Assembly: GCA_035502855.1 (NCBI GenBank)
Contig: DATJTX010000039.1
Span: forward strand, 1-64,000
DNA: 64,000 nucleotides
DNA from: Candidatus Baltobacteraceae bacterium
GTDB lineage: Bacteria > Vulcanimicrobiota > Vulcanimicrobiia > Vulcanimicrobiales > Vulcanimicrobiaceae
Direction of reading: 5' to 3'
The notes beneath the pieces were generated by a model. It did not search any database. It worked only from the letters and a program-made list of their open reading frames with translations, and was not told the origin of the DNA. Made by a program: the position numbers and the translations under genes. Below are positions 23,590 through 37,462 of this stretch, one piece after another. The stretch's first letter is position 1, and each line of letters opens with the position of its first letter.

Positions 23590-24440
23590 TTGCAACCGGG
23601 AGTCTGACGGGCGTTTGGTCGGCGGTGCTCACGCCCGTCGACGAATACTACGAACCGGACGCGGCGCGCGCGGTCGCATACTATCGCGATCTGCTGCACG
23701 ACGGCATCGACGGCATCAACCTGCTCGGCACGACCGGCGAAGCGATGTCGTTCAGCGTCGGCCAGCGCCTGGGTTTGATGGAAGCGGTTGCGGCCGGCCT
23801 ACCGCGTGAACGCACGATGTGCGGCACCGGCGCATCCTCGCTGGCGGATACGGTTCGCCTCACCCGTGCCGCGAGCGACCTCGGCTTCGCCGCCGCCCTG
23901 CTCATGCCGCCGTTTTTCTTCCGCGATGCGAGCGACGAGGGTCTCCTTCGCTTCTTCGACGCGATGCTCAGCCGGGTCGGTACGCTGCGCACGACGATTC
24001 TGCTCTACAATTTCCCGCGCATGACCGGGATCACGTTCCACGCCGGACTCGTCGACCGTCTGCTCGAGGCGTTTCCCGGCACGATCTCCGGCATGAAGGA
24101 CAGTTCGAACGACGAGGTGCTACAGCAAGAAATCTTGGAGCGCCATCCCGAGCTGCGCGTCTTTCCGTCGACCGAAGAAACGCTGATCGAAGCAAAAGGC
24201 TACGGGGCCGCCGGCTGCATTTCCGGCAGCGTCGCGCTGTGGCCACAACCGGCGCATGCCGCCTACGCGAACGGTGACGCGGCGGCGGCCGCGCTCGTGC
24301 GCGCTTCGCGCGCACAGCTTACCGGTGCGCCGTTGATCTCGCTCGTGCGCGCACGCGTCGCGCAAGCACGCCGAGACGATGCTTGGGCCCGCGCCATGCC
24401 GCCGAACGGGGCTTCCCTAGGACAGCCTGCGCGCACGTAA
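23586..24440 (+). CDS. dihydrodipicolinate synthase / aldolase family protein
   Basis: 284 residues, a TIM-barrel class I aldolase. It has GTTGE at 48-52 (pyruvate-carboxylate loop), the catalytic Tyr141 in LLYNFPRMTG and the Schiff-base Lys171 in SGMKDSSND. These residues make an active lyase likely, but the family includes dihydrodipicolinate synthase, N-acetylneuraminate lyase, 4-hydroxy-2-oxoglutarate aldolase and others. Translational coupling to proline dehydrogenase argues for catabolism rather than lysine synthesis; in mammals the same two families (PRODH2 and HOGA1) act in hydroxyproline breakdown. The 3' end overlaps the convergent OPT transporter by 24 bases. Confidence 0.85.
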   Translation: MIATGSLTGVWSAVLTPVDEYYEPDAARAVAYYRDLLHDGIDGINLLGTTGEAMSFSVGQRLGLMEAVAAGLPRERTMCGTGASSLADTVRLTRAASDLGFAAALLMPPFFFRDASDEGLLRFFDAMLSRVGTLRTTILLYNFPRMTGITFHAGLVDRLLEAFPGTISGMKDSSNDEVLQQEILERHPELRVFPSTEETLIEAKGYGAAGCISGSVALWPQPAHAAYANGDAAAAALVRASRAQLTGAPLISLVRARVAQARRDDAWARAMPPNGASLGQPART

Positions 24441-26378
24441 CCCGATCCAGCGATAAACCAAGAATGGCACGACGAAAAACGCGATTCCGGCGAGCCAGTT
24501 TTCCCACGCAAACCCCGAGCCGACGATCGCCAGCGGCGCGCTCTTTTCGCTGAAGTAGATGAGCCCCGCCAATGCGACGCCGAAAAGACTCTCACCCGTA
24601 ATGAAGCCCGACGCGATCAGCACGCCGAGACGTCGTGCCGGAGCCGGATTGGGTTTGCGCATCGTCCAGCGATTGTAGAGCGCGCCGAAGAGCGCCCCGA
24701 CGACCGCCGGCGCCGTGGTCGCGGCGGGAAGATAAATTCCCAGACCGACCGCGAGCGGCGGAAAGCGGAATCGTCCGCTGCGCCGGCCGGCCTCGTCGAT
24801 CATCACGACGACCGCGCCGACGATCGCCCCCGCAAAGATCAAATTCCAATCGATGGCGCCGCCGATCACGCCTTTGGCGAGCGTCGAGATCAACGTGGCT
24901 TGCGGCGCCGGCAAGCCGTGCGGGCCGCCGAAACCGTATGCCTTATTCAGCACGACCAGCACCGGCGGGATGACGATTGCGCCGAAGATCACTCCGACCA
25001 CCAGTGCGACCTGCTGTTTCCATGGTGTCGCGCCAACCAGTTGTCCGGTCTTGAGATCTTGCAGGTTGTCATTCGAGATCGTCGCCACGTTGATCACGAT
25101 TGCGGTAACGAAGAGCGCGTAGGCGATGAACGCCGGCGTCGCTGCCGGCGCGGCCGCGCGCGCGAAAGCCGCAAGGATCAGCGAAACGCCGAGAACCGCG
25201 ATGATCGCCAGGCCCGAGACCGGACTGTTGGACGACCCGATGAGGCCCGCCATGTACCCGCAGACGGCCGCAACCAGAAACCCGACGATCACGACATAGA
25301 TCACCGCGCCGATGATGAGCGGCACGATCATGGACGAGAGGACGCCGCCGGTAAGAAACGCGACCAGCAGAATCGCCATCGGAATCATGCAGATTACCGA
25401 AATCAGCGTAACGATGCCGATCGGGATGTCTTGCTCGGTAATCGGCGCCTCATCGCCGTGCTGCGCCGCGCGCCGCCGGCGCGAAGCGGCCAGCGAAGAC
25501 GCGATGCCCTTCCATACCGGCCCTACCAGCGTTCCCAGCGTCCAAATCCCGGAGATGCCGATCGCACCCGCACCGATGAAGCGCACGTAGTGCGACCACA
25601 CGCTCATTGCGGCGTCGCCGGCCGGCCCCGCGATCGGATGCAGCGCGGTGAGCACCGGGATCGCGATCCCCCACGCAATCACCAGGCCGCCGAAGATCGC
25701 CATTCCGACGGTAAGTCCGATCAAATGGCCGGCGCCGATCAGCGCGAGCGACATCCCAAGACCGATGCCGGTCGTCGAAGGACCGAAACGCCGGTACGCG
25801 TCGAATTCTCCGCTGAAGATCCCGAACGCGATCAGGAGTTGAAACGCCGCCGATACCAGCGAGCCGACGACGAGCGCGATCAAGCCTTGCCGGTTCTCCG
25901 CCACCGCTTCGCTGCTGTGCGTTCCCGAACCGACCTTGAGCACTTCGGCGGCGGCGACACCTTCGGGATAGGGCAAATCGGATTCGGTCACGAGCGCGCG
26001 CCGCAGCGGCACGCTGTACATTACTCCGAGGATACCGCCCACCGCGCAGATACCGAACGACTCCCAAAACGGAAAACCCGTCCACCATCCCACCATCACC
26101 AGACCCGGCAGCACGAAGATGACCGACGAGAGCGTCCCCGCCGCCGACGCCACCGTCTGGACGATGTTGTTCTCCCAGATCGTCGCGTTGCGCAGCCCGC
26201 GCAAGACCGCCATCGAGATGACCGCCGCCGGAATCGAGGAGGCGAACGTGAGCCCGACTTTGAGACCGAGATAGACGTTGGCCGCCGTAAAGACCAACGT
26301 GATCAATCCGCCGAGCGCCAAACCGCGAATCGTGAGTTCGACGCGCGAAGGCCGCGCCGCATCAAGGCTTTGCTGCAC
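24417..26378 (-). CDS. OPT-family oligopeptide/metal-chelate transporter
   Basis: 653 residues starting at GTG 26378, with about sixteen hydrophobic helices. The N-terminal signature ELTIRGLALGGLITLVFTAANVYLGLKVGLTFASSIPAAVIS is characteristic of bacterial OPT/YSL-like transporters. Further marks are ALVTESDLPYPEGVAAAEVLKVG and NDNLQDLKTGQLVGATPWKQQVAL. These are proton-coupled importers of peptides or metal complexes. It converges on the aldolase gene and diverges from a LAL-type ATPase gene with 81 bases between. If the proline dehydrogenase operon is catabolic, peptide uptake would supply its proline. Confidence 0.9.
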   Translation of the reverse strand: MQQSLDAARPSRVELTIRGLALGGLITLVFTAANVYLGLKVGLTFASSIPAAVISMAVLRGLRNATIWENNIVQTVASAAGTLSSVIFVLPGLVMVGWWTGFPFWESFGICAVGGILGVMYSVPLRRALVTESDLPYPEGVAAAEVLKVGSGTHSSEAVAENRQGLIALVVGSLVSAAFQLLIAFGIFSGEFDAYRRFGPSTTGIGLGMSLALIGAGHLIGLTVGMAIFGGLVIAWGIAIPVLTALHPIAGPAGDAAMSVWSHYVRFIGAGAIGISGIWTLGTLVGPVWKGIASSLAASRRRRAAQHGDEAPITEQDIPIGIVTLISVICMIPMAILLVAFLTGGVLSSMIVPLIIGAVIYVVIVGFLVAAVCGYMAGLIGSSNSPVSGLAIIAVLGVSLILAAFARAAAPAATPAFIAYALFVTAIVINVATISNDNLQDLKTGQLVGATPWKQQVALVVGVIFGAIVIPPVLVVLNKAYGFGGPHGLPAPQATLISTLAKGVIGGAIDWNLIFAGAIVGAVVVMIDEAGRRSGRFRFPPLAVGLGIYLPAATTAPAVVGALFGALYNRWTMRKPNPAPARRLGVLIASGFITGESLFGVALAGLIYFSEKSAPLAIVGSGFAWENWLAGIAFFVVPFLVYRWIGLRARRLS

Positions 26379-26459: not shown

Positions 26460-27824
26460 ATGCCCACGCTCGTCGGCCGTGACCGGGACATCGCCGCCGC
26501 GCTCGGCGTTTACACGAGCGCAAAGACCACGCCGTCCGCGCGAACGCTCTTCATCGAAGGGCCGAGCGGGATCGGGAAGACGGCGCTTATCCTCGAACTC
26601 GAGGACCGCGTCGCCTCGGAATCGCTGGTTCTGCGGGCACGTGCGCGCCGGTTCGAACGGGCGATGCCGTTTTCACTGGCCGATCGGCTCGCGCGCAACC
26701 TGCAAACGACGCTCGAGGGCGCCTTACGCCGCCGCCCGGCCGTCGTCATCGTCGACGACACACAGTTCGCGGATAATGAAAGCCTCGAGACGATCGCCGC
26801 CGCAACGCGCGCATCGGCAAACCGTCCGCTGCTCACCGTTTTTACACGCAGCGACGAGAATCCGCGCGACGTGCACCTGCAAGCCGACGCCTCGATTGCG
26901 CTCCGCGAACTCGACGCGAACGCCGCGACCCAAATCGCTCGCGCGCATTATCCCGGTGCATCCCCTGACGTCATCGATGCCGTAATTGCGAACGCCCGCG
27001 GCATTCCGTACGAGATCGTCGCCATTGCCGCGCAAGCTGCGCGCCGCCATGCGACCGGTGCCGCGATGGTGGATTTTTCTTCGCGCGCCGCGATTGCGGT
27101 CGAGTTGGCCGCACTTGCGCCGGCGCAGCGCACGATGCTGCAACTGCTCTCGCTGCTTGCGGATCCCGTGGAATTGCCGTTGCTGCGCGAGCTGATACCG
27201 GACGCAGCCGAGCTTGCGGCGCTGCTGGCTGCGCTCGCCGATACGCACGTCCGTCGCGACGGCGAAGAGGTGCGTCTCGATCACGAACTGACCGCGTCGG
27301 CGATCGCGGAGACGATTGCGATGACGATTCCGCTGCATCGCCGTATCATCGCCGCGATGCAGCGCCGCGGTGCAAAATGCATAGCGGACCGCCTTGCGCT
27401 CGCCGAGCAAACGCTGGCAGCGGGCGATCGCGCGTTGGCACGCGGCGTCGTGCTCGATCTCGCATTCGCCGCCGCCGGCGAACACCTCACGCGTGCCGTG
27501 CTCTGGGCGTCGGAGCGTCATCTCGAACTCGGCGAGCCTCCCGATGAGCGCTTCATCGACTTCTATCGAAACTTCTTTGCGGCCCTGATGGATACGCGGC
27601 AATATACGCGAGCCGAATCGATCGTCGCGCACGCATTGAGCGAAGCACAGCACCGCGGCCTATCCGGGATGGGATCGCTGGTCGCGCAGTTGGTGCTGGC
27701 GCAATGGACGGTGGAACGGCACGAGGCTGCGAAGGCGAGCTACGAGCGCTACGCGCAGGCATTTGCGGATCCGCGCGATCTTCAACTGCTGCGTGAGGCG
27801 GCGCCGTGGCTACGGGCGGTCTAG
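26460..27824 (+). CDS. LAL-type (LuxR/MalT-like) ATPase lacking the C-terminal HTH
   Basis: 454 residues from ATG 26460, with GGAGG eight bases upstream. N-terminal LVGRDRDI followed by GPSGIGKTALILEL (P-loop) and PAVVIVDDTQFAD (Walker B) define an AAA/STAND NTPase like that of large LuxR regulators. Helical repeats follow. The protein ends at about residue 454 in a repeat-like helix (FADPRDLQLLREAAPWLRAV) without the expected LuxR helix-turn-helix; the paralogue 465 bases downstream has it and is 864 residues long. The C-terminal half is therefore either lost or never present. It may modulate the paralogue or be a non-DNA-binding sensor. Confidence 0.82.
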   Translation: MPTLVGRDRDIAAALGVYTSAKTTPSARTLFIEGPSGIGKTALILELEDRVASESLVLRARARRFERAMPFSLADRLARNLQTTLEGALRRRPAVVIVDDTQFADNESLETIAAATRASANRPLLTVFTRSDENPRDVHLQADASIALRELDANAATQIARAHYPGASPDVIDAVIANARGIPYEIVAIAAQAARRHATGAAMVDFSSRAAIAVELAALAPAQRTMLQLLSLLADPVELPLLRELIPDAAELAALLAALADTHVRRDGEEVRLDHELTASAIAETIAMTIPLHRRIIAAMQRRGAKCIADRLALAEQTLAAGDRALARGVVLDLAFAAAGEHLTRAVLWASERHLELGEPPDERFIDFYRNFFAALMDTRQYTRAESIVAHALSEAQHRGLSGMGSLVAQLVLAQWTVERHEAAKASYERYAQAFADPRDLQLLREAAPWLRAV

Positions 27825-27831
27825 GGAAGCT

Positions 27832-28200
27832 CTAGTTCTCGGCGCAATCGTTCCGGAGGACGAAGACGGCGATACGCCGGCCCTCTTCGCCGTGGAGCGG
27901 CGCGACCGTCACCTGCAGATGCGAAACGACGGCGGTGGCGCTCGCGGCCGGGCGCGACGTGCGCCAGGTCGCGGTCAACGCGCGCACGACCCGGTCGATC
28001 GGACCGGGCAACTGGTCGATCCGCGAATCGGCCGCGTAGAGCGCAGCCAGGGGATCCTCGCGTCCCGACGGTCCCGCCATCACGACCCGGTATGTATCGT
28101 CCAGAATGAAACAGTAGGGAATCAGGTTCGGCCGCGCCGCCGGCAGCGGGGACGCATTTCTCGGCGCCGCGTCCTTAAAGGTTAGTGCTCGGGCATACAT
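27832..28200 (-). CDS. small PAS-like protein between two LAL regulators
   Basis: 122 residues from ATG 28200. The central sequence LIPYCFILDDTYRVVMAGP followed by a helix-rich stretch and VSHLQVTVAPLHGEEGRRIAVFVLRND resembles a PAS fold: a beta pair, helices, then three strands. There is no membrane helix and no catalytic motif. It is transcribed opposite to, and lies between, two LuxR-LAL ATPase genes. It may sense a ligand for them or be regulated by them. The name rests on pattern only. Confidence 0.6.
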   Translation of the reverse strand: MYARALTFKDAAPRNASPLPAARPNLIPYCFILDDTYRVVMAGPSGREDPLAALYAADSRIDQLPGPIDRVVRALTATWRTSRPAASATAVVSHLQVTVAPLHGEEGRRIAVFVLRNDCAEN

Positions 28201-28288
28201 GATCGGGTCCTCCACGCTGCAAGACTAGCGCGATTGCGGCCCTGCGAACGTCCGGGGAAATACCTGATTTTCGGCTAACGCAGCCCGC

Positions 28289-30883
28289 GTGGGCATCCTG
28301 GTGGGGCGCGATGCCGAGCTGGAACAGGCTCGGGCCGTATTGGATTCGGCGGCGAAGGGCGGCCTGGTGCGCGCGCTGCGAATCACCGGCCTCAGCGGCA
28401 CCGGAAAGACCCGGCTCGCCGAGGAGTTCTCGGACCAGGCGGCGGCCGCAGGCTGGCTCGTCGTCCGCGTGCCGAGCTTTCGCATTCACACGACCCTTCC
28501 GCTCTTTGCGGCACGCCGAATCGCCGGCGAGCTCCTGGACGCCCTGGGCCCTTCAGCCGAGCGGTACCGTTCGGGATTGACCCTCGAGCGCGATCGCCCC
28601 GAGGACTTCCAAGAAGCGTTCGTTCGAATCGTCGAAGGCGTAACGCTCGACCACCGCTTGCTCGTCGTTCTCGACGATGCGCAGTGGACGGACATCGAAA
28701 GCCGCGAGTTGCTCTTACGCATGGGGACGGCACTGGCCGACCGGGCGATCGTAATCCTCACGGTCGAACGTACCGATGAGTCGGCGGAACCGGCGCTGCG
28801 CCTTCTCGACGAATCGATCGTGCTGGGCGACCTGCCGAACGCGGCCTCGATGGAAATCGTGCGCGCCATCTACCCGCAGGTGAGTCCCGAGGTTGCGGAA
28901 TCCATCGTGGCCGCGACCCGCGGTCACACCATGGACGTGGTCGCCGTCGCTACCGCCGCGCGCGAGAGCGGTGCGCAAAACGCAGCCGACGTCGGCGCAA
29001 GTACCCGCCGCGTCGTGGTCCGCGACCTGTCTCTGCTCGATCCGGAGATCCGCGCTTTTTTGCAGCTTGCCGCACTGATCGACGAACCGATCGAGTTTTC
29101 GCTGCTTCAACAACTCTGGCCGCGCGATCGTTTACTCGATATGATTTCGAAGGTCTCGGGACGCTACCTCATCGAGGGGAACGACGGATTGCGCTTCGTC
29201 CATGCGACGATCATGGAGAGCGTGCTCGAGACGATTCCGATCGAAATCCCGCTGCGCTATCGGATCATCGACGCGCTCCGGAAACGCGTTACGCCGCGCC
29301 TGGAAGATTACGAGCGGCTGATCAAACAGAGCGCGGCGTGCGGCGACCGCGAGCTCGAGCGCGACACGCTTTTGAAGCTGGCGGATGCCGCGGCTGGGAA
29401 GTCGCTCTATCGTCTCGCTACCGGTGCGATGGAACGAGCCTTCAAGATTGCGCCGGCAACTCGCGAAGAACTGATCCCGCTCTATGCGCGCCTCTCGCAG
29501 ATGTACAACGCGATGGGACGGGTGACGGACGCAATTCGTGTGTGCCGCGACGCTCTCGTTCAAGCCCGGGAGCACGAGCTCGTCGACGGGCTCGGCGCGA
29601 TCGTGGCATCACTTGCTCTGGGCTTGAACCATGCCGGGCAGAGCGCCACGGCTCGCGCGGAACTGGAACGCTACGGCGAAGTGCTGCGCTCGGACGCCGA
29701 TCGCGCGCAGCTGCTGACCGTCGGCGGCTATTTGGCCACCTGTCAGCACGAACTCGATCGCGCGAACGAACTGGCCACGGCGTTCGAAGCCTTACCGCCG
29801 CCGGTGAGCCCGCTGCTTACGGTGCGGCACCACATCAACCGTGCGTTTCTTTCGCTGCGTATCGGCGACGAGGCCGGAATCCTCGATAACGTACGGCTCG
29901 CCGAGCGCGCGGCCGAGCCGCTGCCGGCAGTCGTTTCGACGATGCCGCGCGCGGTCCGAATGCTCCATGCCTTTCGCTTCGGCGGGTTACAGGCGGCGGA
30001 GCGCTATCTGGAGGTGCGTGAAGACGAACTCAACGAGGTGCTCAACTTCATGCTTCGGGCGGCAACGCTGCTCGGGCGCGGTGCATTCGACGACGCACGC
30101 GACTTCGTCATCGAGAAGGTCGGACGATTCGAAGATCCGTCGGTGACGTACGCGCTCCTCGGTCTGTATGCGGTGTCGGCGGCGCTGGCGGGTTTGCCGC
30201 CGGACGACGCCGGCTGGGATCCGGTGCGTCCGGCGATTGACGCCTTTCGCGGAGGCGAACGCACCGGGGCGCTCGCGGTCGGGATGTCGGCGTGGGCATA
30301 TGCGCAGGCCGCTCAAAACAAGCCTGCGACCGGCGCGCTCGTCCGCGAACTGCTGGCATTGCATCGGCGGCCGTTCGACTTTGTGATCGCTCCGTTTCCG
30401 GTCTTGCTCGCCCTTGGCGCGCGTCATCTCAACGACCGCGAGCTCATCGCCGAAGTCGCGACGGGCACGACACTCTTCTGTGACGCGCAGCCCTGGAACC
30501 GCGCGCATCTCCTCCTCGCGCGGGGCGCAGCGGGAAACGCGTTGGGGTTGACGTCAGCCGCCGTCGAGTTGGGCGAAGCGCGCGCGATCTTCACCGCGCT
30601 GCAAGCCGATTTTTTTGCGAATTTCGCGGAACAGATTGCTTCCGGCGGCAGCGCGAAAGTCAAAACCGCCGGAGCAGAGCGCCCCGGAAATACGACGCGA
30701 CGAGAGCGCGAAATCGCCGCCCTCGTAGCGGAGGGCTTGACGAATCGCGAGATCGCCGAACGGCTCGTGCTGAGCGAGCGCACGGTCGAAGGTCACATCG
30801 CCAATCTCTTCGCCAAGGTGAACGTCAATTCGCGAACGCAGCTCGCGACCTGGTATTTGCGGGCCGTCAGCTCTGTTGCATGA
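28289..30883 (+). CDS. LuxR-family LAL transcriptional regulator
   Basis: 864 residues starting at GTG 28289. [29 protein letters not shown] (P-loop) and [15 protein letters not shown] (Walker B) form the STAND ATPase. A long TPR-like helical region follows, and the last about 65 residues are a LuxR-type helix-turn-helix: [54 protein letters not shown] proteins activate operons for degradation or secondary metabolites. Here its end overlaps the tail of the minus-strand TfuA-YcaO cluster by 17 bases, which makes it a candidate regulator of that cluster. Confidence 0.93.
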
Positions 30884-31154
30884 GGTACACGATGCCGACG
30901 TGATGCGGTCCGCCCGGATGCGCCTTGTGGAATTCGGTGGCGTCATGCTTGAGATGCGAATCGACGTAGGCGGCCATCGCGTGGAGATCGGCCTTGCCCG
31001 GCGCCTCCGCCAGGCCGACATGCCTGCGAATCAGCTCTCCGACCTTCGCTGCGTCGTCTTGCGGCGTGTGCGACCACTCATTATAGACTTCTGGTGAGGT
31101 ATGCAATACATGGAGAAATCCAGCGGCGGCTGCATGCCGTTGTACCTCGGTCAT
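30867..31154 (-). CDS. 95-aa histidine-rich protein, candidate substrate of the YcaO cluster
   Basis: 95 residues with 12 histidines and no cysteine. The first about 70 residues look helical ([32 protein letters not shown]). The tail from about 71 is less structured ([22 protein letters not shown]). The ATG at 31154 has AGGGAG upstream and lies 85 bases past the methyltransferase gene, on the same strand and last in the TfuA-YcaO gene run. I recognise no family. Position and size fit a modified peptide or a small partner protein, with the C-terminal tail as the possible core. It lacks a double-Gly or other standard leader cleavage site, so this is unproven. The 3' end overlaps the LuxR gene by 17 bases. 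Confidence 0.65.
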
Positions 31155-31238: not shown

Positions 31239-32102
31239 TTAATCAGCGCGGGCGGTAACCAGCCGTAGCGGTAGGGACGTCGTAACATAGCCGTTGGAAC
31301 CCCCGATCTCCGACGCGAATGCAAACAACCGGTCGCGCAACGCGTCTTGCATCGGCCGTTCGAGCAACCCGAACGGATACATGTTCCGCGTAAACGTCCA
31401 CAGCTGATCGAGCGAAAGCGTGCTCCGCAGCACGGTCCGCTCGATCAGCTGTTCGTGAAAACCGGCGGCGGTCAACAATGAGCTCAGGCCCTCGTCGTGC
31501 TCGATGGCTTCGCGCTCGGGAATGACCAGCCTGAACGAAGGCCAATCGGCGCCCAGCGAAGCCAGCGCCGCGCCGACGATGCGGAAGATCGACTCCGGTG
31601 CACCGAGATCTTCAACGATGCACGCAAAGAGGGCGCCCGGACGCAAGGCGGCGTGAATCCGCTCCACGACCGTGCGCAGACGCGAAACGATCGCCAGAGT
31701 CAAATGGGCGAGGACGACGTCATAGGTATTTTGGCCTAGGCCATCAGCCGCATCGGCGCACCGTAGCAAGGCAAGCGGTGCGACGCGCCGGGCACGCGCG
31801 ATCTCGTCCTCGGAAAGATCGACCCCGTGCAGTGTGATGTCCTTGCCGTACGCGCGCGCGATCTGCGCCAGCAGCGTTCCGTTCCCGCAGCCCAGGTCGA
31901 GCACGTCGTGAGCCTGCGGCGCCAGTTCCCGCACCCGCCGGGCGAGCAGTTCATACGACGTCGCGCCGCCGTCGGCGCGGAAAAGCGAGATCGTTCCCGA
32001 GGTGGCATCGGCGAACGCGCGATGGAACGTGATCAGATGCTGATTCCACTCCGCGACCGTCGGGACGTCGCCGGCGCGCAGGCGCGCGAGATAGGGCGTC
32101 AC
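31239..32102 (-). CDS. class I SAM-dependent methyltransferase
   Basis: 287 residues. The Rossmann motif I is HDVLDLGCGNGTLLAQIA, followed by ITLHGVDLSEDEIARAR, ALLRCADAADGL, YDVVLAHLTLAIV and a C-terminal substrate cap region (about 180-287) unlike common UbiE-type enzymes. N-terminal residues AEWNQHLITFHRAF form a helix typical of small-molecule methyltransferases. It lies 59 bases after the TfuA-YcaO gene on the same strand. The target could be the modified peptide, a thioamide or a side chain; the sequence does not say which. Confidence 0.88.
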   Translation of the reverse strand: MTPYLARLRAGDVPTVAEWNQHLITFHRAFADATSGTISLFRADGGATSYELLARRVRELAPQAHDVLDLGCGNGTLLAQIARAYGKDITLHGVDLSEDEIARARRVAPLALLRCADAADGLGQNTYDVVLAHLTLAIVSRLRTVVERIHAALRPGALFACIVEDLGAPESIFRIVGAALASLGADWPSFRLVIPEREAIEHDEGLSSLLTAAGFHEQLIERTVLRSTLSLDQLWTFTRNMYPFGLLERPMQDALRDRLFAFASEIGGSNGYVTTSLPLRLVTARAD

Positions 32103-32161: not shown

Positions 32162-34132
32162 CTAGCGATGCAAAGCAAAGGGATTCAGCAGCGCACGCGC
32201 GCGTGAGCCCATGGCGCCGGTGAAGACGAACGTTTCCAGACCCGGAACGATCGTTCTCACGACCGCGATCGGGAGATCCGGCGGCGAGAGATCGATCGCG
32301 ACGACGCTGTCAAACCCGTCCTCGCGCAGCAACTCGAGCGTCGTGCGCAGGTCGGCAGCCAAATCATCGCTGCTGCGGTCCGGCAAATCGCGCAAGAATA
32401 TCTCCCGCGCAGGCAGGTCGTAGTACCACTGTTTGGTGGGAATCGCTTTCAAACGCCGCGCGTGGTCACCCATGATTCCCTTGGGCTCGTCGGAACGCAG
32501 AATGTCTTCGCGCGCCGCTTGAATATCGACCACGCGGCTTTGCACCGCCTCGGTGAGCGCGCGCGTCAGCGCATGCGCGGGAGAGAGCGCGCAGCCCAGC
32601 CCCATGTGCGCCATCGGCGGAGTTGCGTCTTCCTCGGTGACCGAGGCGATGACCGTTATGGGGAGCGCACCCTCTTGCAGCGCGAGCGCGCGAACCGTGA
32701 GTCCGGCTTCGACGATTTCGCGCACGAGCCGGTCGACGTTCGCCTCGCCGGCCGGCAGCGCGATTCGCGGCGCGCCCGCACGATCGCCGGCTTCCGGCCC
32801 GAGATAGAACCGCGGGACGAGTGAACAGCGGACGTGGTACATCGACCAGATATGACGCTCGATCAGCTCGCAGAGCGCGTGGTAGATCGCCTCGGTGAGA
32901 TTATTGCCCGAGGCGAGACCGTTGGTCGAGGTGACGTCGAAGAGGCGCTCCCCGAACCACGGGCATTGCACCATCGCAAGCGGAACGGGGATCGCCTCAC
33001 CCGTGAGCAGCTCGGTGCCGAGCACGCACTCGACCGTGCGGTCGCCGGCGTCCTCACGCACGCCGCACGCCGCAAGATCGATGCGCTCGCCGACGATCCG
33101 CAGCGATTCCCGGAAGAGTGGGAGGTTCACGGCCGCCCCGATCTGCCGTTCCGCCGCTTCCATGACCGCACTTGCCATCGCGCTTTCCGGCGTCATTCCC
33201 TTTCCGTTGTAGACGCCGAGCAGATCGGGTGAATGCGGCACCAGCGCGGAGTAGGTGGGAATCCGGGTGCGATCGAGATGGGTCGTGTCGGCGACGCGAG
33301 TGATCCCGTACCGCCGGCGCAGCTCGGGTACCAGCGCGACCGTCTGCGTAAACGGAACGGCGCGATCGTACGTCTGCGGCGCCTTGCGAACCGATGGCGG
33401 CAGAACGATCGGCGCCGTATCGGCCGCAGGCTGGAGCGCGATCGTAACACGGGTCGGTGCCGCGGTTTCACCGCCTGCGCGCCCGCGGCGAGCGCGGCTG
33501 CGCAGCACCGTGCGCAGACCAAAGCGCGCGTCCATGCGCTTGAGGTCACCCTGCGATCGCGCGATCGACGCGATTGCCGCACGGGCATCCTTCGGCGCAC
33601 CTTCGAGCACGTCGTCCCAGCTGCGATCCGCATAAAAGATCGCTCGCGCGCGTCGAATGAAGTCGTCGCGTTCGGCCGCGCCAAGCAACCCGCGACGGCA
33701 AGCGAGGCGGGCGACATAACGCACGTTGACCAGGGGCACGCTCAATGCGTCGTGCGTCTCCGGGTGCGTGAGCACGGCCACTTCGTCGTCGCCGTCGATC
33801 ACGTCGCGCGCATACCAATTGGCGATCGTGCCGAGCGGCGTGAATCCGTACGGCGCGCACTCGGCCGCGCGCAGCGCGCCCATGCTCGATGCGCCGAACA
33901 TTCGCGCGCGGCTCACCGCGGCGTAGCATTCCTTGGGCGAAGGCGCGAGATCGTGATGAAAGACGCCGTCGATCAATAGGACGACGTCGTGTTCTCGCGC
34001 TGCGCGCTCGACGTCGCCGCGCGATGCGGGCGGAAGATAAACGACGCCGGCGATCGCGACGCGATCTTCAAACGGCAACGAAGGGCCGGCAAATACGGCG
34101 ACCCGGCGGCGGTGAGCGTCCACGCACCACAA
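32162..34132 (-). CDS. TfuA-YcaO fusion protein (ATP-dependent amide-backbone modification)
   Basis: 656 residues in one chain. Residues about 10-190 are TfuA-like: VFAGPSLP, DGVFHHDLAPSPKE, ASSMGALRAAE (81-91) and DGDDEVAVLTH (113-123). After a linker (about 195-250), YcaO follows with its ATP-binding set: YNGKG (308-312), SAVMEAAERQIG, NGLASGNNLTEAIYHALCELIERH (404-427). The C-terminus ends NPFALHR, with no PxPxP tail. YcaO enzymes phosphorylate backbone amides; with TfuA as partner the usual outcome is thioamidation, as in methyl-CoM reductase and some RiPPs. Start is TTG 34132 or GTG 34123. A methyltransferase and small proteins flank it on the same strand. Confidence 0.92.
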   Translation of the reverse strand: MWCVDAHRRRVAVFAGPSLPFEDRVAIAGVVYLPPASRGDVERAAREHDVVLLIDGVFHHDLAPSPKECYAAVSRARMFGASSMGALRAAECAPYGFTPLGTIANWYARDVIDGDDEVAVLTHPETHDALSVPLVNVRYVARLACRRGLLGAAERDDFIRRARAIFYADRSWDDVLEGAPKDARAAIASIARSQGDLKRMDARFGLRTVLRSRARRGRAGGETAAPTRVTIALQPAADTAPIVLPPSVRKAPQTYDRAVPFTQTVALVPELRRRYGITRVADTTHLDRTRIPTYSALVPHSPDLLGVYNGKGMTPESAMASAVMEAAERQIGAAVNLPLFRESLRIVGERIDLAACGVREDAGDRTVECVLGTELLTGEAIPVPLAMVQCPWFGERLFDVTSTNGLASGNNLTEAIYHALCELIERHIWSMYHVRCSLVPRFYLGPEAGDRAGAPRIALPAGEANVDRLVREIVEAGLTVRALALQEGALPITVIASVTEEDATPPMAHMGLGCALSPAHALTRALTEAVQSRVVDIQAAREDILRSDEPKGIMGDHARRLKAIPTKQWYYDLPAREIFLRDLPDRSSDDLAADLRTTLELLREDGFDSVVAIDLSPPDLPIAVVRTIVPGLETFVFTGAMGSRARALLNPFALHR

Positions 34133-34172
34133 TTTCGGCGGACGCGCGCACGCTCACCTGTGCTCCCGGTTA

Positions 34173-34322
34173 TCAGGGAGTCGTGCTCGGACTTGGGCTC
34201 GGTGACGGTGTCATCTGTGCCGTAGCCGTGGTCGTTTGCGTCTGCGCGCCGACGGCAATGCCTGCACCAAGAGTGGTTGCAAGCACCGCCGCAGCGACGA
34301 GGCGCGTAATGAGTTGCTGCAT
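34173..34322 (-). CDS. 49-aa secreted peptide with a Pro/Ser/Thr tail
   Basis: This short gene runs ATG 34322 to TGA 34173. Residues 1-26 are a clean signal peptide (MQQLITRLVAAAVLATTLGA, then GIAVGA), and the mature tail is QTQTTTATAQMTPSPSPSPSTTP. It lies 40 bases ahead of the TfuA-YcaO gene on the same strand, so it is first in that run. The tail could be a cell-surface linker or glycosylation substrate, or simply a small secreted protein unrelated to YcaO. A cytoplasmic YcaO acting on a Sec-type precursor would be unusual. Confidence 0.55.
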   Translation of the reverse strand: MQQLITRLVAAAVLATTLGAGIAVGAQTQTTTATAQMTPSPSPSPSTTP

Positions 34323-34627
34323 GCGCTCGGTCTACCCCGGCGACGCGCGCCGCTAACGCGTTAGACGCCCGCTAAACCGCGGCCCGTCCGGGCTCGTCCA
34401 AGGTCTCTTTTCACGCTAAGGCAACGCCGACTTAGTCCCGCGCAATTCACGCGTCGTGTTATAAAGGTCACGCGCCGAGAGGCGTTCTTGCGCTCGTTCA
34501 ACATCGTCAAGCCACACTATCCGAAGGGCGTCGAGCACGTGTTCTTCAACCCTTCTTCAGAGCGGAATCAGCCGAAATGTCGACAACATAGCGCCGACTT
34601 AATCGGACCCACCGTAAATTGGCCTGG
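34323..34627. other. 305-bp gap with palindrome, repeats and a possible gene fragment
   Basis: A perfect palindrome CTAACGCGTTAG (34353-34364) lies just upstream of the secreted-peptide gene and could be its operator. A 10-bp direct repeat CGCCGACTTA occurs at 34425 and 34592. A plus-strand frame from about 34440 to 34570 reads like coding sequence (FLRSFNIVKPHYPKGVEHVF) but has no good start and runs into antisense of the next gene, so it may be a truncated remnant at the edge of the AT-richer insert. GAAATGTCGAC at 34574-34584 has an inverted partner 2.7 kb away. Confidence 0.4.
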
Positions 34628-35422
34628 CTACCGAAGGCCGAAAATCCAACCTTCTACTTCCGCTGCGGCCATATCGTCTTTGGAGAGTGGAGGAGTGAAG
34701 AGCGGCTCCAGCAAGCTGACCTCGTCCTGCTGGCGTGCCCACTCCGCAATGACGAACGCATCATGTTGGTCGCCGCTACGGTCGCCTTGGTCAAATGCCT
34801 TGTTCCAGAGGGCCGGGTAAACCTCAGCGATGACGGACGCCCCTTCCGGTGGGCGCCAGCCATCAAATGGCCAGAAGAAGACCTTGCCTCCCAGCTGCTG
34901 GCGAATGAAGCGCAGCCACGGCAGCCCGGCATGTGTAGACTTTGCGACCGTCCCTTGGCAGTCAAAGTGAAACACCGATTTTGCCGTACGGGTGCGAATC
35001 TCGGTAATGCGTCGCCACCGGCTGTTTCCGGAGCGCAAAGCGCCCGCGCCCCACAGATCGTGACGCACGAAATCAACATACATGTGGTCGCCATCTGTCG
35101 GCCAATGCATCTGAAAATCGTCGAGAAATGCAGACCAGTCGTGCTGCAAGCCGTGCTTCGCGAAGTATTTCAGCGGAAACGAAAACGCGTGGTCGATCCC
35201 CACGAAGGTTGGGTTGCATTCTCGGAGCGAGGAGACGAGACACTCAGCGACTCCTTTGCGCGTCCAATGTTTTCGCGGGCTTGGCGGTGGCGGCACCTCT
35301 GCGGTTACTGAACCACGAGATGCCTGGTATACGCGCAATCCCTTCAGGCTGCTCGTCGGGGTTTGCGCGCCGGAATAATCGATGCCGATGTATCGCTCAA
35401 ACACGTTGCTGGCCCCGATCAT
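34628..35422 (-). CDS. DUF429-like predicted RNase H-fold protein
   Basis: 264 residues. YIGIDYSGA near the N-terminus, FVGIDHAFSFP (about 75) and VIAEVYPALW with DQHDAFVIAEWAR near the C-terminus give the acidic residues in the order expected for the DUF429 predicted RNase H-like nuclease family. Base composition is clearly more AT-rich than the neighbouring 30 kb. It follows the AbiE genes on the same strand with a 164-base gap, so it belongs to the inserted defence module. The nuclease activity of this family is predicted, and a role with AbiE is inference. Confidence 0.7.
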   Translation of the reverse strand: MIGASNVFERYIGIDYSGAQTPTSSLKGLRVYQASRGSVTAEVPPPPSPRKHWTRKGVAECLVSSLRECNPTFVGIDHAFSFPLKYFAKHGLQHDWSAFLDDFQMHWPTDGDHMYVDFVRHDLWGAGALRSGNSRWRRITEIRTRTAKSVFHFDCQGTVAKSTHAGLPWLRFIRQQLGGKVFFWPFDGWRPPEGASVIAEVYPALWNKAFDQGDRSGDQHDAFVIAEWARQQDEVSLLEPLFTPPLSKDDMAAAEVEGWIFGLR

Positions 35423-35586
35423 CGAGAACCCGTAACTCGATGAAGAGCCCTTTACCTTCGTTGCTGTCGGGCACTCGCTGGAAGAAGGTCTCCGGTAGCG
35501 CGCTGGATGCGAGGGGAAAGTTCCAAAACGCGGCGCGAAGCGCGCAGCTGCGACATCCGGAATTCATACACACTTTGTTTAAGGCT

Positions 35587-36510
35587 TCACGGGATGCCCG
35601 CGAAGCGACCAGCGAGCTCGTCGGCCTGGGCGCGCAACTTGGCGTTATTCTCTTTCGCGAGCTTTTGCAGGTTTTGCACTTTCCATTTAATCGCGGGTAA
35701 TCGCGCAACATGTTCGATATCGAGCAGTTTCCATTGCGGATCAGCATTAGCGAGCGAAATTAGGAATTGCCTCTCATCGGGTGTTAAAGACTTGGGAAGG
35801 TCGTTGAACAGACGGTTACGAGCCGAAAGCAATTCGGACAACTCGACCGGTTCGGCCATCATACCACGGAAGGTCTGCTCATAGTCGCGCGATATGTCTA
35901 GTTCTGTAGGAAAGAGCACTTCATGGATTGGTCGGTTATGACTGGCCAAGTAAACAACAAAGCTCCGCCTGATATCTGGCGTAATGCCTTCATTCGCAAA
36001 TAGCTGCAATACGTCGAAGAGGTCGCGTGGATGCTGCCGATCGAGCGCGGCGACCAGCTTGCCCCCATAGACGTCGTGGGGAGAGAGAACGGGCAAGTCC
36101 AGATCTCGCAAGAGTGTGTTTCTTGCCCTAGGCGCAAGTGAAAGACGCTGAATCGGCTCGACCGTTCCGCGGATGACTTTGTTTACTTCGATCTTTACGC
36201 GGATTGTGCCCCGTGTAATCAGGAGCTTCGCTTCAATAGCATCGCCCTGAGCCGGTACATGAGCCTGAAAGCCGCGCGCAATGAGACGATCGCGAGCGTT
36301 CCGAATTGCGTCGTTTATGGCGGATATAGCGGCAGAACGCGGCACTCTGTAGTCCGTGAACGCCAAATCCAAGTCGACGGACAGACGCGGCATGTCGCGT
36401 AGAAAGAGATTGATCGCGGTGCCGCCCTTTAGCGCGAGCCTCTCGTCTGTAAAGATGAAAGGTGCAACTTCAGCCATCATTCGGGCGGTGTCGATATATG
36501 TTTGGTTCAC
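35587..36510 (-). CDS. AbiEii-family nucleotidyltransferase toxin
   Basis: 307 residues. LALKGGTAINLFLRDMPRLSVDLDLAF (about 25-51) is the nucleotidyltransferase motif GG-TA...R-S-D-D of AbiEii/AbiGii toxins, with LSPHDVYGGKLVAALDRQHPRDLFDVLQLF as the second conserved block. These enzymes transfer nucleotides, in the mycobacterial MenT relatives to tRNA 3' ends, and stop growth during phage infection. It begins at a GTG that overlaps the antitoxin stop (GTGA), the standard antitoxin-first order. It should be neutralised by AbiEi without protein contact (type IV). Confidence 0.92.
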   Translation of the reverse strand: MNQTYIDTARMMAEVAPFIFTDERLALKGGTAINLFLRDMPRLSVDLDLAFTDYRVPRSAAISAINDAIRNARDRLIARGFQAHVPAQGDAIEAKLLITRGTIRVKIEVNKVIRGTVEPIQRLSLAPRARNTLLRDLDLPVLSPHDVYGGKLVAALDRQHPRDLFDVLQLFANEGITPDIRRSFVVYLASHNRPIHEVLFPTELDISRDYEQTFRGMMAEPVELSELLSARNRLFNDLPKSLTPDERQFLISLANADPQWKLLDIEHVARLPAIKWKVQNLQKLAKENNAKLRAQADELAGRFAGIP

Positions 36511-37244
36511 GGTTTCAGCACGAGCAGGCCATCTCGCGATTTTGACACCCAGGGTCGACCGCTCCCGGTAGGTAGTTTCTTAAGGTCGAGCTTCGCGACC
36601 CAATTCAAGTCAAGCTCACGAGCTAATTGCAAACAAAGACGGACAGTCTTTACGCTCTTACAGTTCTGTAGAAGCTCGTTCAAGACATCAGCGCGCATGT
36701 TGTAAGCGCTCTCCATGATCTCGCGTGCCTCTTGTAACGGCTGCCGAACTCCTACCTCGCTTAACAGTTCGAGCAACGCACGTTCAGGCGAAGATGTTAG
36801 AGGCCCGTCCGTGCGTTGTTCAAACGCTGTGACGTGCAGCATGTCGTCGGGAGTCTCACTGAAAAGCCGCTTCCGATGGTACTCGCCGGGGAAGCGCGTC
36901 GTGAACCATTCGGGAAGCCGGGCGGCGGCCCAACCGTATAGGTGCAACACCTCATGGCTGGCGACGTAGTGACGAACGCCATACCAGTCGAGAGCGGTCT
37001 TGCCGCCGATGTGGAGCCCCGTGATTTGGCATTGTAGCGCTACGAGAGTGGCGTCTCGAGAAAGTGGCTGGCCCGCCCGGTAATAAACTCCCCTGCCTAG
37101 CCTTTTGAGCCATCCGGTCCGGACGTAGTGCACGGCAAGGTCGGCGGATATCCCGTGCCTGGACAGAAGGGTTGTCGTCAGGGGGCTGCCTGCTGGAAGG
37201 TCCTCGTACAGACGCTTTAGTTTATTCCGAGTTGTCGTAACCAC
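36507..37244 (-). CDS. AbiEi-family antitoxin and autorepressor
   Basis: 245 residues from GTG 37244. An N-terminal winged-helix (TTLLSRHGISADLAVHYVRTGWLKRLGRGVYYR) is followed by the AbiEi C-terminal domain with HIGGKTALDWYGVRHYVA, LHLYGW and SSPERALLELLSEVG. The domain order matches the AbiEi antitoxins, which bind inverted repeats in their own promoter through the N-domain and counteract the toxin through the C-domain. A large symmetric operator covers its start codon. The -10 box TATGAT (37256-37251) lies so close that the message is probably leaderless. Confidence 0.9.
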   Translation of the reverse strand: MVTTTRNKLKRLYEDLPAGSPLTTTLLSRHGISADLAVHYVRTGWLKRLGRGVYYRAGQPLSRDATLVALQCQITGLHIGGKTALDWYGVRHYVASHEVLHLYGWAAARLPEWFTTRFPGEYHRKRLFSETPDDMLHVTAFEQRTDGPLTSSPERALLELLSEVGVRQPLQEAREIMESAYNMRADVLNELLQNCKSVKTVRLCLQLARELDLNWVAKLDLKKLPTGSGRPWVSKSRDGLLVLKP

Positions 37245-37317
37245 GCTACGATCATAGCATATTTTCTAAATAGTGTGTTTAGAATATCTATCGCTATCGT
37301 AGCGCAGCTACGACAAC
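37231..37317. promoter_or_regulatory. 87-bp symmetric AbiEi operator-promoter
   Basis: Two 22-bp arms (37231-37252 and 37296-37317) are inverted copies with 19 of 22 matches, and each arm is itself a dyad, TCGTA-N7-TACGA. An inner perfect inverted repeat TTCTAAA / TTTAGAA (37264-37284) has the same centre at 37274. The left arm covers the GTG start codon and touches the TATGAT -10 box. AbiEi proteins are known to repress by binding paired inverted repeats of about 23 bp around their promoter. Confidence 0.85.
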
Positions 37318-37462
37318 AGTCGACATTTCAAACCGCCGGGATGTAGAGCTTACTACTAGGCCGGTAGCTGGGAGCCCATCACCCTAAGCGGCACACTACA
37401 GGGAGGGGCGGTTACCTGGCATTCAATCCTGACTCGCCGTTTATCCTAACCCCCCAGCCGGC

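Follow-up and report, generated by a model that had tools for sequence, protein, structure and literature searches.

YcaO proteins activate a backbone amide with ATP, and the thioamide formers among them are recognised by a TfuA partner. Meanwhile, azoline formation needs a Cys, Ser or Thr residue. The sulfide is supplied by TfuA, which obtains it from a thiocarboxylated ThiS-like carrier (PMC13063428). Precedents for housekeeping thioamidation are McrA in methanogens and ribosomal uL16 in Pseudomonadota. For RiPPs, the thiovarsolin precursor VarA has repeated cores behind a single leader (PMC6511847). Fusions of TfuA and YcaO are also on record: Malit et al. (2021, PMC8120280) reported one in Burkholderia thailandensis, where it belongs to a cluster proposed to make a thioamidated RiPP, and Santos-Aberturas et al. 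(2019, PMC6511847) left three fused proteins of Actinobacteria out of a tree. The then-known TfuA-YcaO RiPPs in the 2021 survey were all from Actinobacteria, and Eremiobacterota was unmentioned (PMC8120280). Among the papers listed by our literature search, which covered open papers, none tied Eremiobacterota to TfuA or thioamides.

The window investigated here is a stretch of 64,000 nucleotides (contig C39, positions 1-64000) from a 3.33-Mb assembly that is 96.6% complete and belongs to an uncultured member of the phylum Eremiobacterota (Vulcanimicrobiota in the NCBI taxonomy). The first-pass annotation held that TfuA and YcaO are usually separate proteins and that here they share a single polypeptide. 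The architecture is rare but, with fusions already published, not new; what looks new is the precursor peptide family. The single polypeptide itself was confirmed, and both domains are complete, with Pfam scores far above the cut-offs: TfuA (PF07812) matches residues 55-171 (E = 2e-29, 102.3 bits, gathering score 30) and YcaO (PF02624) matches residues 309-633 (E = 9e-57, 193.3 bits, cut-off 25.7). The coordinates of the gene also held. Its strand, absent from the first-pass annotation, is the minus strand: the plus-strand frame is interrupted by stops, and the coding ORF runs from 34132 to 32162. Translation may start at TTG 34132 or, a few residues further in, at GTG 34123, and the GTG is aligned with a start in a related genome (G001). 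The features of the locus are collected in Table 1.

Table 1. Features of the TfuA-YcaO locus in the window
Feature	Position	Strand	Basis
TfuA-YcaO fusion protein, 656 aa	32162..34132	-	ORF; Pfam; homologues; AlphaFold2 model
TfuA domain, residues 10-216 (model ~9-216)	33485..34105	-	33% identity to M. acetivorans TfuA 6xp8, Z 26.6
Linker, residues 217-246 (about 217-245 in model)	33395..33484	-	Low conservation; lower pLDDT
YcaO domain, residues 247-650	32183..33394	-	Nearest solved structures MJ1094 6peu/6pe3; ATP-site motifs conserved
SAM-dependent methyltransferase, 287 aa, next downstream of fusion	31239..32102	-	Pfam Methyltransf_25/11
Proposed RiPP precursor peptide, 95 aa (ATG 31154), two genes downstream of fusion	30867..31154	-	Homologues beside TfuA/YcaO genes
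Proposed core peptide, precursor residues 81-95	30870..30914	-	C-terminal motif
LAL-type regulator (AAA_16 ATPase + LuxR/GerE HTH)	28289..30883	+	Pfam
Small conserved orphan protein of cassette	27832..28215	-	Beside most loci with HVG-type core
OPT oligopeptide transporter	24417..26378	-	Pfam OPT 1.6e-102

The three strings proposed for the ATP site, YNGKG (residues 308-312), AVMEAAER (322-329) and NNLTEAIYHALCELIERH (410-427), are all present in the fusion and lie in conserved columns. Furthermore, every residue that is at least 95% conserved across the alignment rows is kept (27 of 27 in TfuA and 40 of 40 in YcaO), as are the YcaO ATP-site residues E325, E328, N410, E414, E422, E425 and R426. 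By homology, the TfuA domain would be a sulfur-delivery hydrolase or activator, and the YcaO domain would perform ATP-dependent amide activation. The linker between the domains does exist, and the Arg- and Pro-containing stretches noted in it are found in the window protein; the linker sequence varies among the ten remaining fusions, and the stretches were given no weight. The C-terminus, RARALLNPFALHR, lacks a PxPxP tail as claimed, and its LNPF is conserved in the 11 fused proteins.

The fusion was modelled with AlphaFold2. An alignment holding only the 11 close fused homologues gave a pLDDT of 44.5, and an alignment of 149 rows was used instead, which gave a mean pLDDT of 94.4 and a pTM of 0.93. 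Low confidence is limited to the N-terminus, the linker and the C-terminal end, and the high pTM suggests that the predicted placement of the two domains relative to each other is confident. The structural checks proposed with the first-pass annotation came out in its favour. The N-terminal part matches the TfuA of M. acetivorans with an rmsd of 2.3 over 208 residues, and the YcaO part superposes on MJ1094 with bound peptide (6peu, Z 43.0) and with bound ATP (6pe3, Z 41.8). Further YcaO matches were the M. kandleri YcaO (Z 40), LynD (Z 32-35), TruD (Z 29.5) and McbD (Z 27). Thus, the thioamide-forming MJ1094 outscores the azoline formers LynD/TruD (Z 29-35) and McbD, which supports a thioamide reading. 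None of the PDB matches seen for the model contains both TfuA and YcaO.

The full-length fusion was found in ten further genomes (68-74% identity) of the same family as the window genome, and the 11 fused proteins are spread over three genera of this family. In addition, C-terminal fragments of the fusion lie at contig ends in G079 and G086. The close relatives that have public names are metagenome-assembled genomes, several of them labelled Candidatus Eremiobacterota. Across the order, TfuA/YcaO occurs in 29 of the 103 genomes. In the plasmid collection, the nearest match was 37% identical and in two pieces; the single record examined has ycaO and tfuA as distinct genes.

A maximum-likelihood tree of 52 YcaO domains recovered the fused YcaOs as monophyletic (100/99) and nested in an Eremiobacterota clade (100/100) that includes separate tfuA and ycaO genes. 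Next to this clade stand the TfuA-paired YcaOs of Acidobacteria and Actinobacteria (92/92), and the methanogens are farther out; this was the phylogeny that the first-pass annotation had asked for. Elsewhere in the order tfuA and ycaO are separate genes, and where they are neighbours tfuA is the upstream one. Outside the Eremiobacterota clade, the order in the loci checked is ycaO and then tfuA. In four genomes (G028, G010, G070 and G072), tfuA and ycaO are in different frames and either adjoin directly or share a few bases, so that a small indel that also removed the stop would join them. The fusion is a single event, from abutting tfuA-ycaO genes. The same arrangement could suggest an assembly or frameshift artefact that joined two abutting genes, since one indel could do so. 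We ruled this out and give it practically no probability, because the fusion runs uninterrupted in eleven independent genomes of three genera that form one 100/99 clade.

The fusion, the methyltransferase and the 95-aa ORF, facing the LuxR/AAA regulator, are a conserved cassette. A homologue of the methyltransferase occupies the corresponding position in the fused loci and also occurs in G033, G077, G095 and G096. The regulator is convergent with the precursor gene, overlaps its 3′ end by 17 bp, and belongs to a family found beside most related loci. The OPT transporter is also near the locus in G001, G033, G091, G092, G095 and G096, and it is possible that it is the transport gene of the cassette. 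No cassette-specific cleavage site, protease or exporter was identified, and a promoter and terminator scan gave a result at chance level.

Several other features were seen around the cassette. The small orphan protein, which has no Pfam match, sits between the LuxR/AAA regulator and a shorter AAA paralogue without the HTH (26460-27824, plus strand), and this arrangement with a second AAA paralogue is common to the window and G001. On the other side, about 3.3 kb of lower GC (0.58) lies between the fusion and a PDZ/GAF gene (34133-37462, minus strand); it holds an unassigned 264-aa ORF (35422-34628) along with genes for AbiEi and AbiEii, a type IV toxin-antitoxin pair (37244-35587). The fusion and the PDZ/GAF gene are about 55 bp apart in G001, and thus the stretch looks like an insertion. 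Just upstream of the fusion there is a 49-aa ORF (34322-34173, minus strand; MQQLITRLVAAAVLATTLGAGIAVGAQ...PSPSPSPSTTP) with a signal-peptide-like start. Genes for a peroxiredoxin and a CxxC thioredoxin-like protein lie upstream of tfuA at L029 (9089-10101) and about a dozen other loci. The pair is seen in many family members and not in the window, and its role in sulfur or redox supply is hypothetical. The window genome also has a second, stand-alone YcaO (contig C26, L043 9026-10603; 217 bits) that carries no TfuA domain; a B12-binding radical SAM protein is encoded within a few kb of it, and this may be a further RiPP cluster.

The gene for the small peptide lies outside the coordinates of the first-pass annotation, which overlooked it. 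Its homologues lie near TfuA/YcaO genes across the whole order. A profile search over the 103 genomes of the order found this family in 27, all of which have TfuA/YcaO; it detected no member in the 74 genomes that lack TfuA/YcaO. The two other TfuA/YcaO genomes are G029, whose divergent precursor matches another profile, and G114, which has a distant pair. Among eight genomes of one genus, dN/dS of the small ORF was 0.04-0.36, that is, purifying selection; thus, the ORF is a translated and constrained gene. The 95-aa protein of the window has no Pfam or NCBIfam match. Furthermore, none of 23 members scored above the cut-off of the Nif11/NHLP leader profiles, with two weak Nif11 matches (E = 0.0089 and 0.096).

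The C-terminal core follows the motif P-x-[HT]-V-G-x3-[LVM]-[MV]-Q. Among 23 cores, G is present in all, V and Q in 22 each and P in 19, and position -2 is His in 12 and Thr in nine. No Cys, Ser or Thr is conserved, and the window core is free of all three from its P to its last Q. In G033 (L033), (DAPS)HVGxxFVVQ occurs five times behind a single leader, encoded by tandem repeats of 42 bp, and in G078 (L062) a leader has two core copies; such tandem copies behind one leader are expected of a core peptide. Meanwhile, G007 has three single-core precursor genes in a row. In the distant members (the f2 genomes, G014, G029 and G035), the C-terminus is without the V-G...Q motif. Thus, the modified residue differs among members, and the distant ones presumably have other products. 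Beside the nearest Acidobacteria and Asanoa loci, a listing of small high-GC3 ORFs and the precursor profile found no precursor with the motif. A tfuA and a ycaO gene with a precursor peptide gene, the combination that marks a thioamidated-RiPP cluster, are present at the locus and conserved in relatives. Judged from its sequence and setting, the 95-aa ORF is likely the precursor of an apparently undescribed thioamidated RiPP family.

Two loci hold further copies. L033 (9411-14352) has one tfuA, two ycaO genes, one five-core and one single-core precursor, and the two YcaOs may share the one TfuA. Another precursor copy lies away from the fusion in G078 (L165, contig C4, 2298-2579) beside a methyltransferase-like ORF, perhaps a second cluster. 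We also considered a metal-chelating peptide, in view of the core His/Met and nearby P-type ATPases. It found no support: the ATPase beside the G025 locus adjoins KdpA and is probably KdpB, not a copper pump.

We consider it quite likely that the fusion is a one-chain thioamide synthetase acting on the peptide encoded two genes downstream. In this scheme, the YcaO domain would activate a backbone amide of the precursor with ATP, and the TfuA domain would take sulfur from a ThiS-like thiocarboxylate and pass sulfide to the activated amide to give the thioamide. The substrate would be the 95-aa protein, with the first ~80 residues as leader and the last 15 holding the core. Modification would most likely fall on the backbone at the invariant Gly, giving thioglycine, or at a neighbouring residue. 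The Gly is favoured since the closest characterised relatives make thioglycine; this is a guess by analogy, to which we give clearly less than an even chance. A further change to the same peptide would probably be methylation by the neighbouring methyltransferase. Expression would be controlled by the convergent LuxR/AAA protein. Joining the two domains would fix their stoichiometry and hold the sulfide donor beside the activated amide. With respect to the sulfur source, the window genome has a ThiS gene on contig C31, between thiO-like and thiG-like genes (both recognised by eye), and a second ThiS-family gene on C24 that is MoaD-like by context. Thus, a source exists and none is dedicated to the cassette. 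We assume that the fusion uses the ThiS encoded elsewhere with the thiamine genes.

The thioamide chemistry favoured by the first-pass annotation was argued there from the missing PxPxP tail, which alone is weak evidence; the TfuA partner, the nearest relatives and the core peptide give it better support. Azoline formation requires Cys, Ser or Thr, and the core has none conserved; together with the TfuA partner, this makes a thioamide the natural reading. It could still be argued that the YcaO domain makes an azoline or macroamidine and that TfuA is only a structural partner, since the fold is the same as that of LynD and TruD and the Thr at core position -2 could be a site in one subgroup. 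However, besides the core composition, the absent tail and the family knowledge that TfuA marks thioamide formers, no E1-like/ThiF partner was found among the conserved neighbours scanned, and the SagD/TOMM D model (TIGR03604) stayed below its cut-off for the fusion (98.9 vs 219.25 bits). We find this reading highly improbable.

Another view would leave the thioamide in place and change its target: the enzyme would modify a housekeeping protein, and the small ORF would be regulatory or accessory and not the substrate. The patchy distribution in the order (29 of 103 genomes) argues against this, and so do the presence of TfuA/YcaO in every genome with the small ORF and the tandem repetition of its C-terminal motif. 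The closest solved and NCBIfam relatives are McrA-thioamidation proteins, and a ribosomal protein is the documented target of the E. coli YcaO (PMC13063428), which both favour such a target. Yet the fusion scores under the cut-offs of the McrA-glycine thioamidation equivalogs (201.1 vs 365 for TIGR03266 and 157.7 vs 235.2 for NF033432). A housekeeping target is thus unlikely in our judgement, and we retain the peptide as the probable substrate.

As a wider proposal, this may be a new thioamidated RiPP class, confined to one Eremiobacterota order as searched, whose precursors have a leader and one to five hydrophobic cores of the above motif with thioglycine, some of them made by a bifunctional TfuA-YcaO that passes sulfide between its fused sites without release. 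This is tentative, and we place it a little short of even. The fused enzyme, whose likely substrate is encoded two genes from it, would be a convenient single-chain system for studying the docking of TfuA on YcaO and the hand-over of sulfide. At a pTM of 0.93, the model is confident enough for designing tests. The C-terminal core, at 15 residues, could be made by synthesis, and the multi-core relatives would show how many sites are modified per chain.

Compared with known systems, the precursor resembles the Nif11/NHLP leader peptides in having, by eye, a leader of ~80 aa and then a short C-terminal core, but it has no significant match to their profiles. The methanogen McrA-glycine pair (MJ1094 6pe3/6peu and TfuA 6xp8; PMC5589413) shares both folds, the conserved residues and presumably the reaction. 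However, it consists of separate proteins with a large enzyme as target, and the window protein is below both equivalog cut-offs. The fusions of B. thailandensis and actinobacteria, set beside the window fusion by description only, have the same one-polypeptide TfuA/YcaO in other phyla, and two radical SAM proteins are encoded in the cluster of B. thailandensis, whereas none was seen at the window cassette. The thiovarsolin system (varA, varY, varT; PMC6511847) also has YcaO and TfuA acting on a precursor whose core is tandemly repeated in some members. In contrast, its YcaO and TfuA are separate, its precursor is another one, and its core is APR; the APR/GPR core is replaced in the window family by P-x-[HT]-V-G-x3-[LVM]-[MV]-Q. 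In addition, the thiovarsolin cluster carries heme oxygenase, ATP-grasp and amidinotransferase genes, and the window cassette has a methyltransferase instead.
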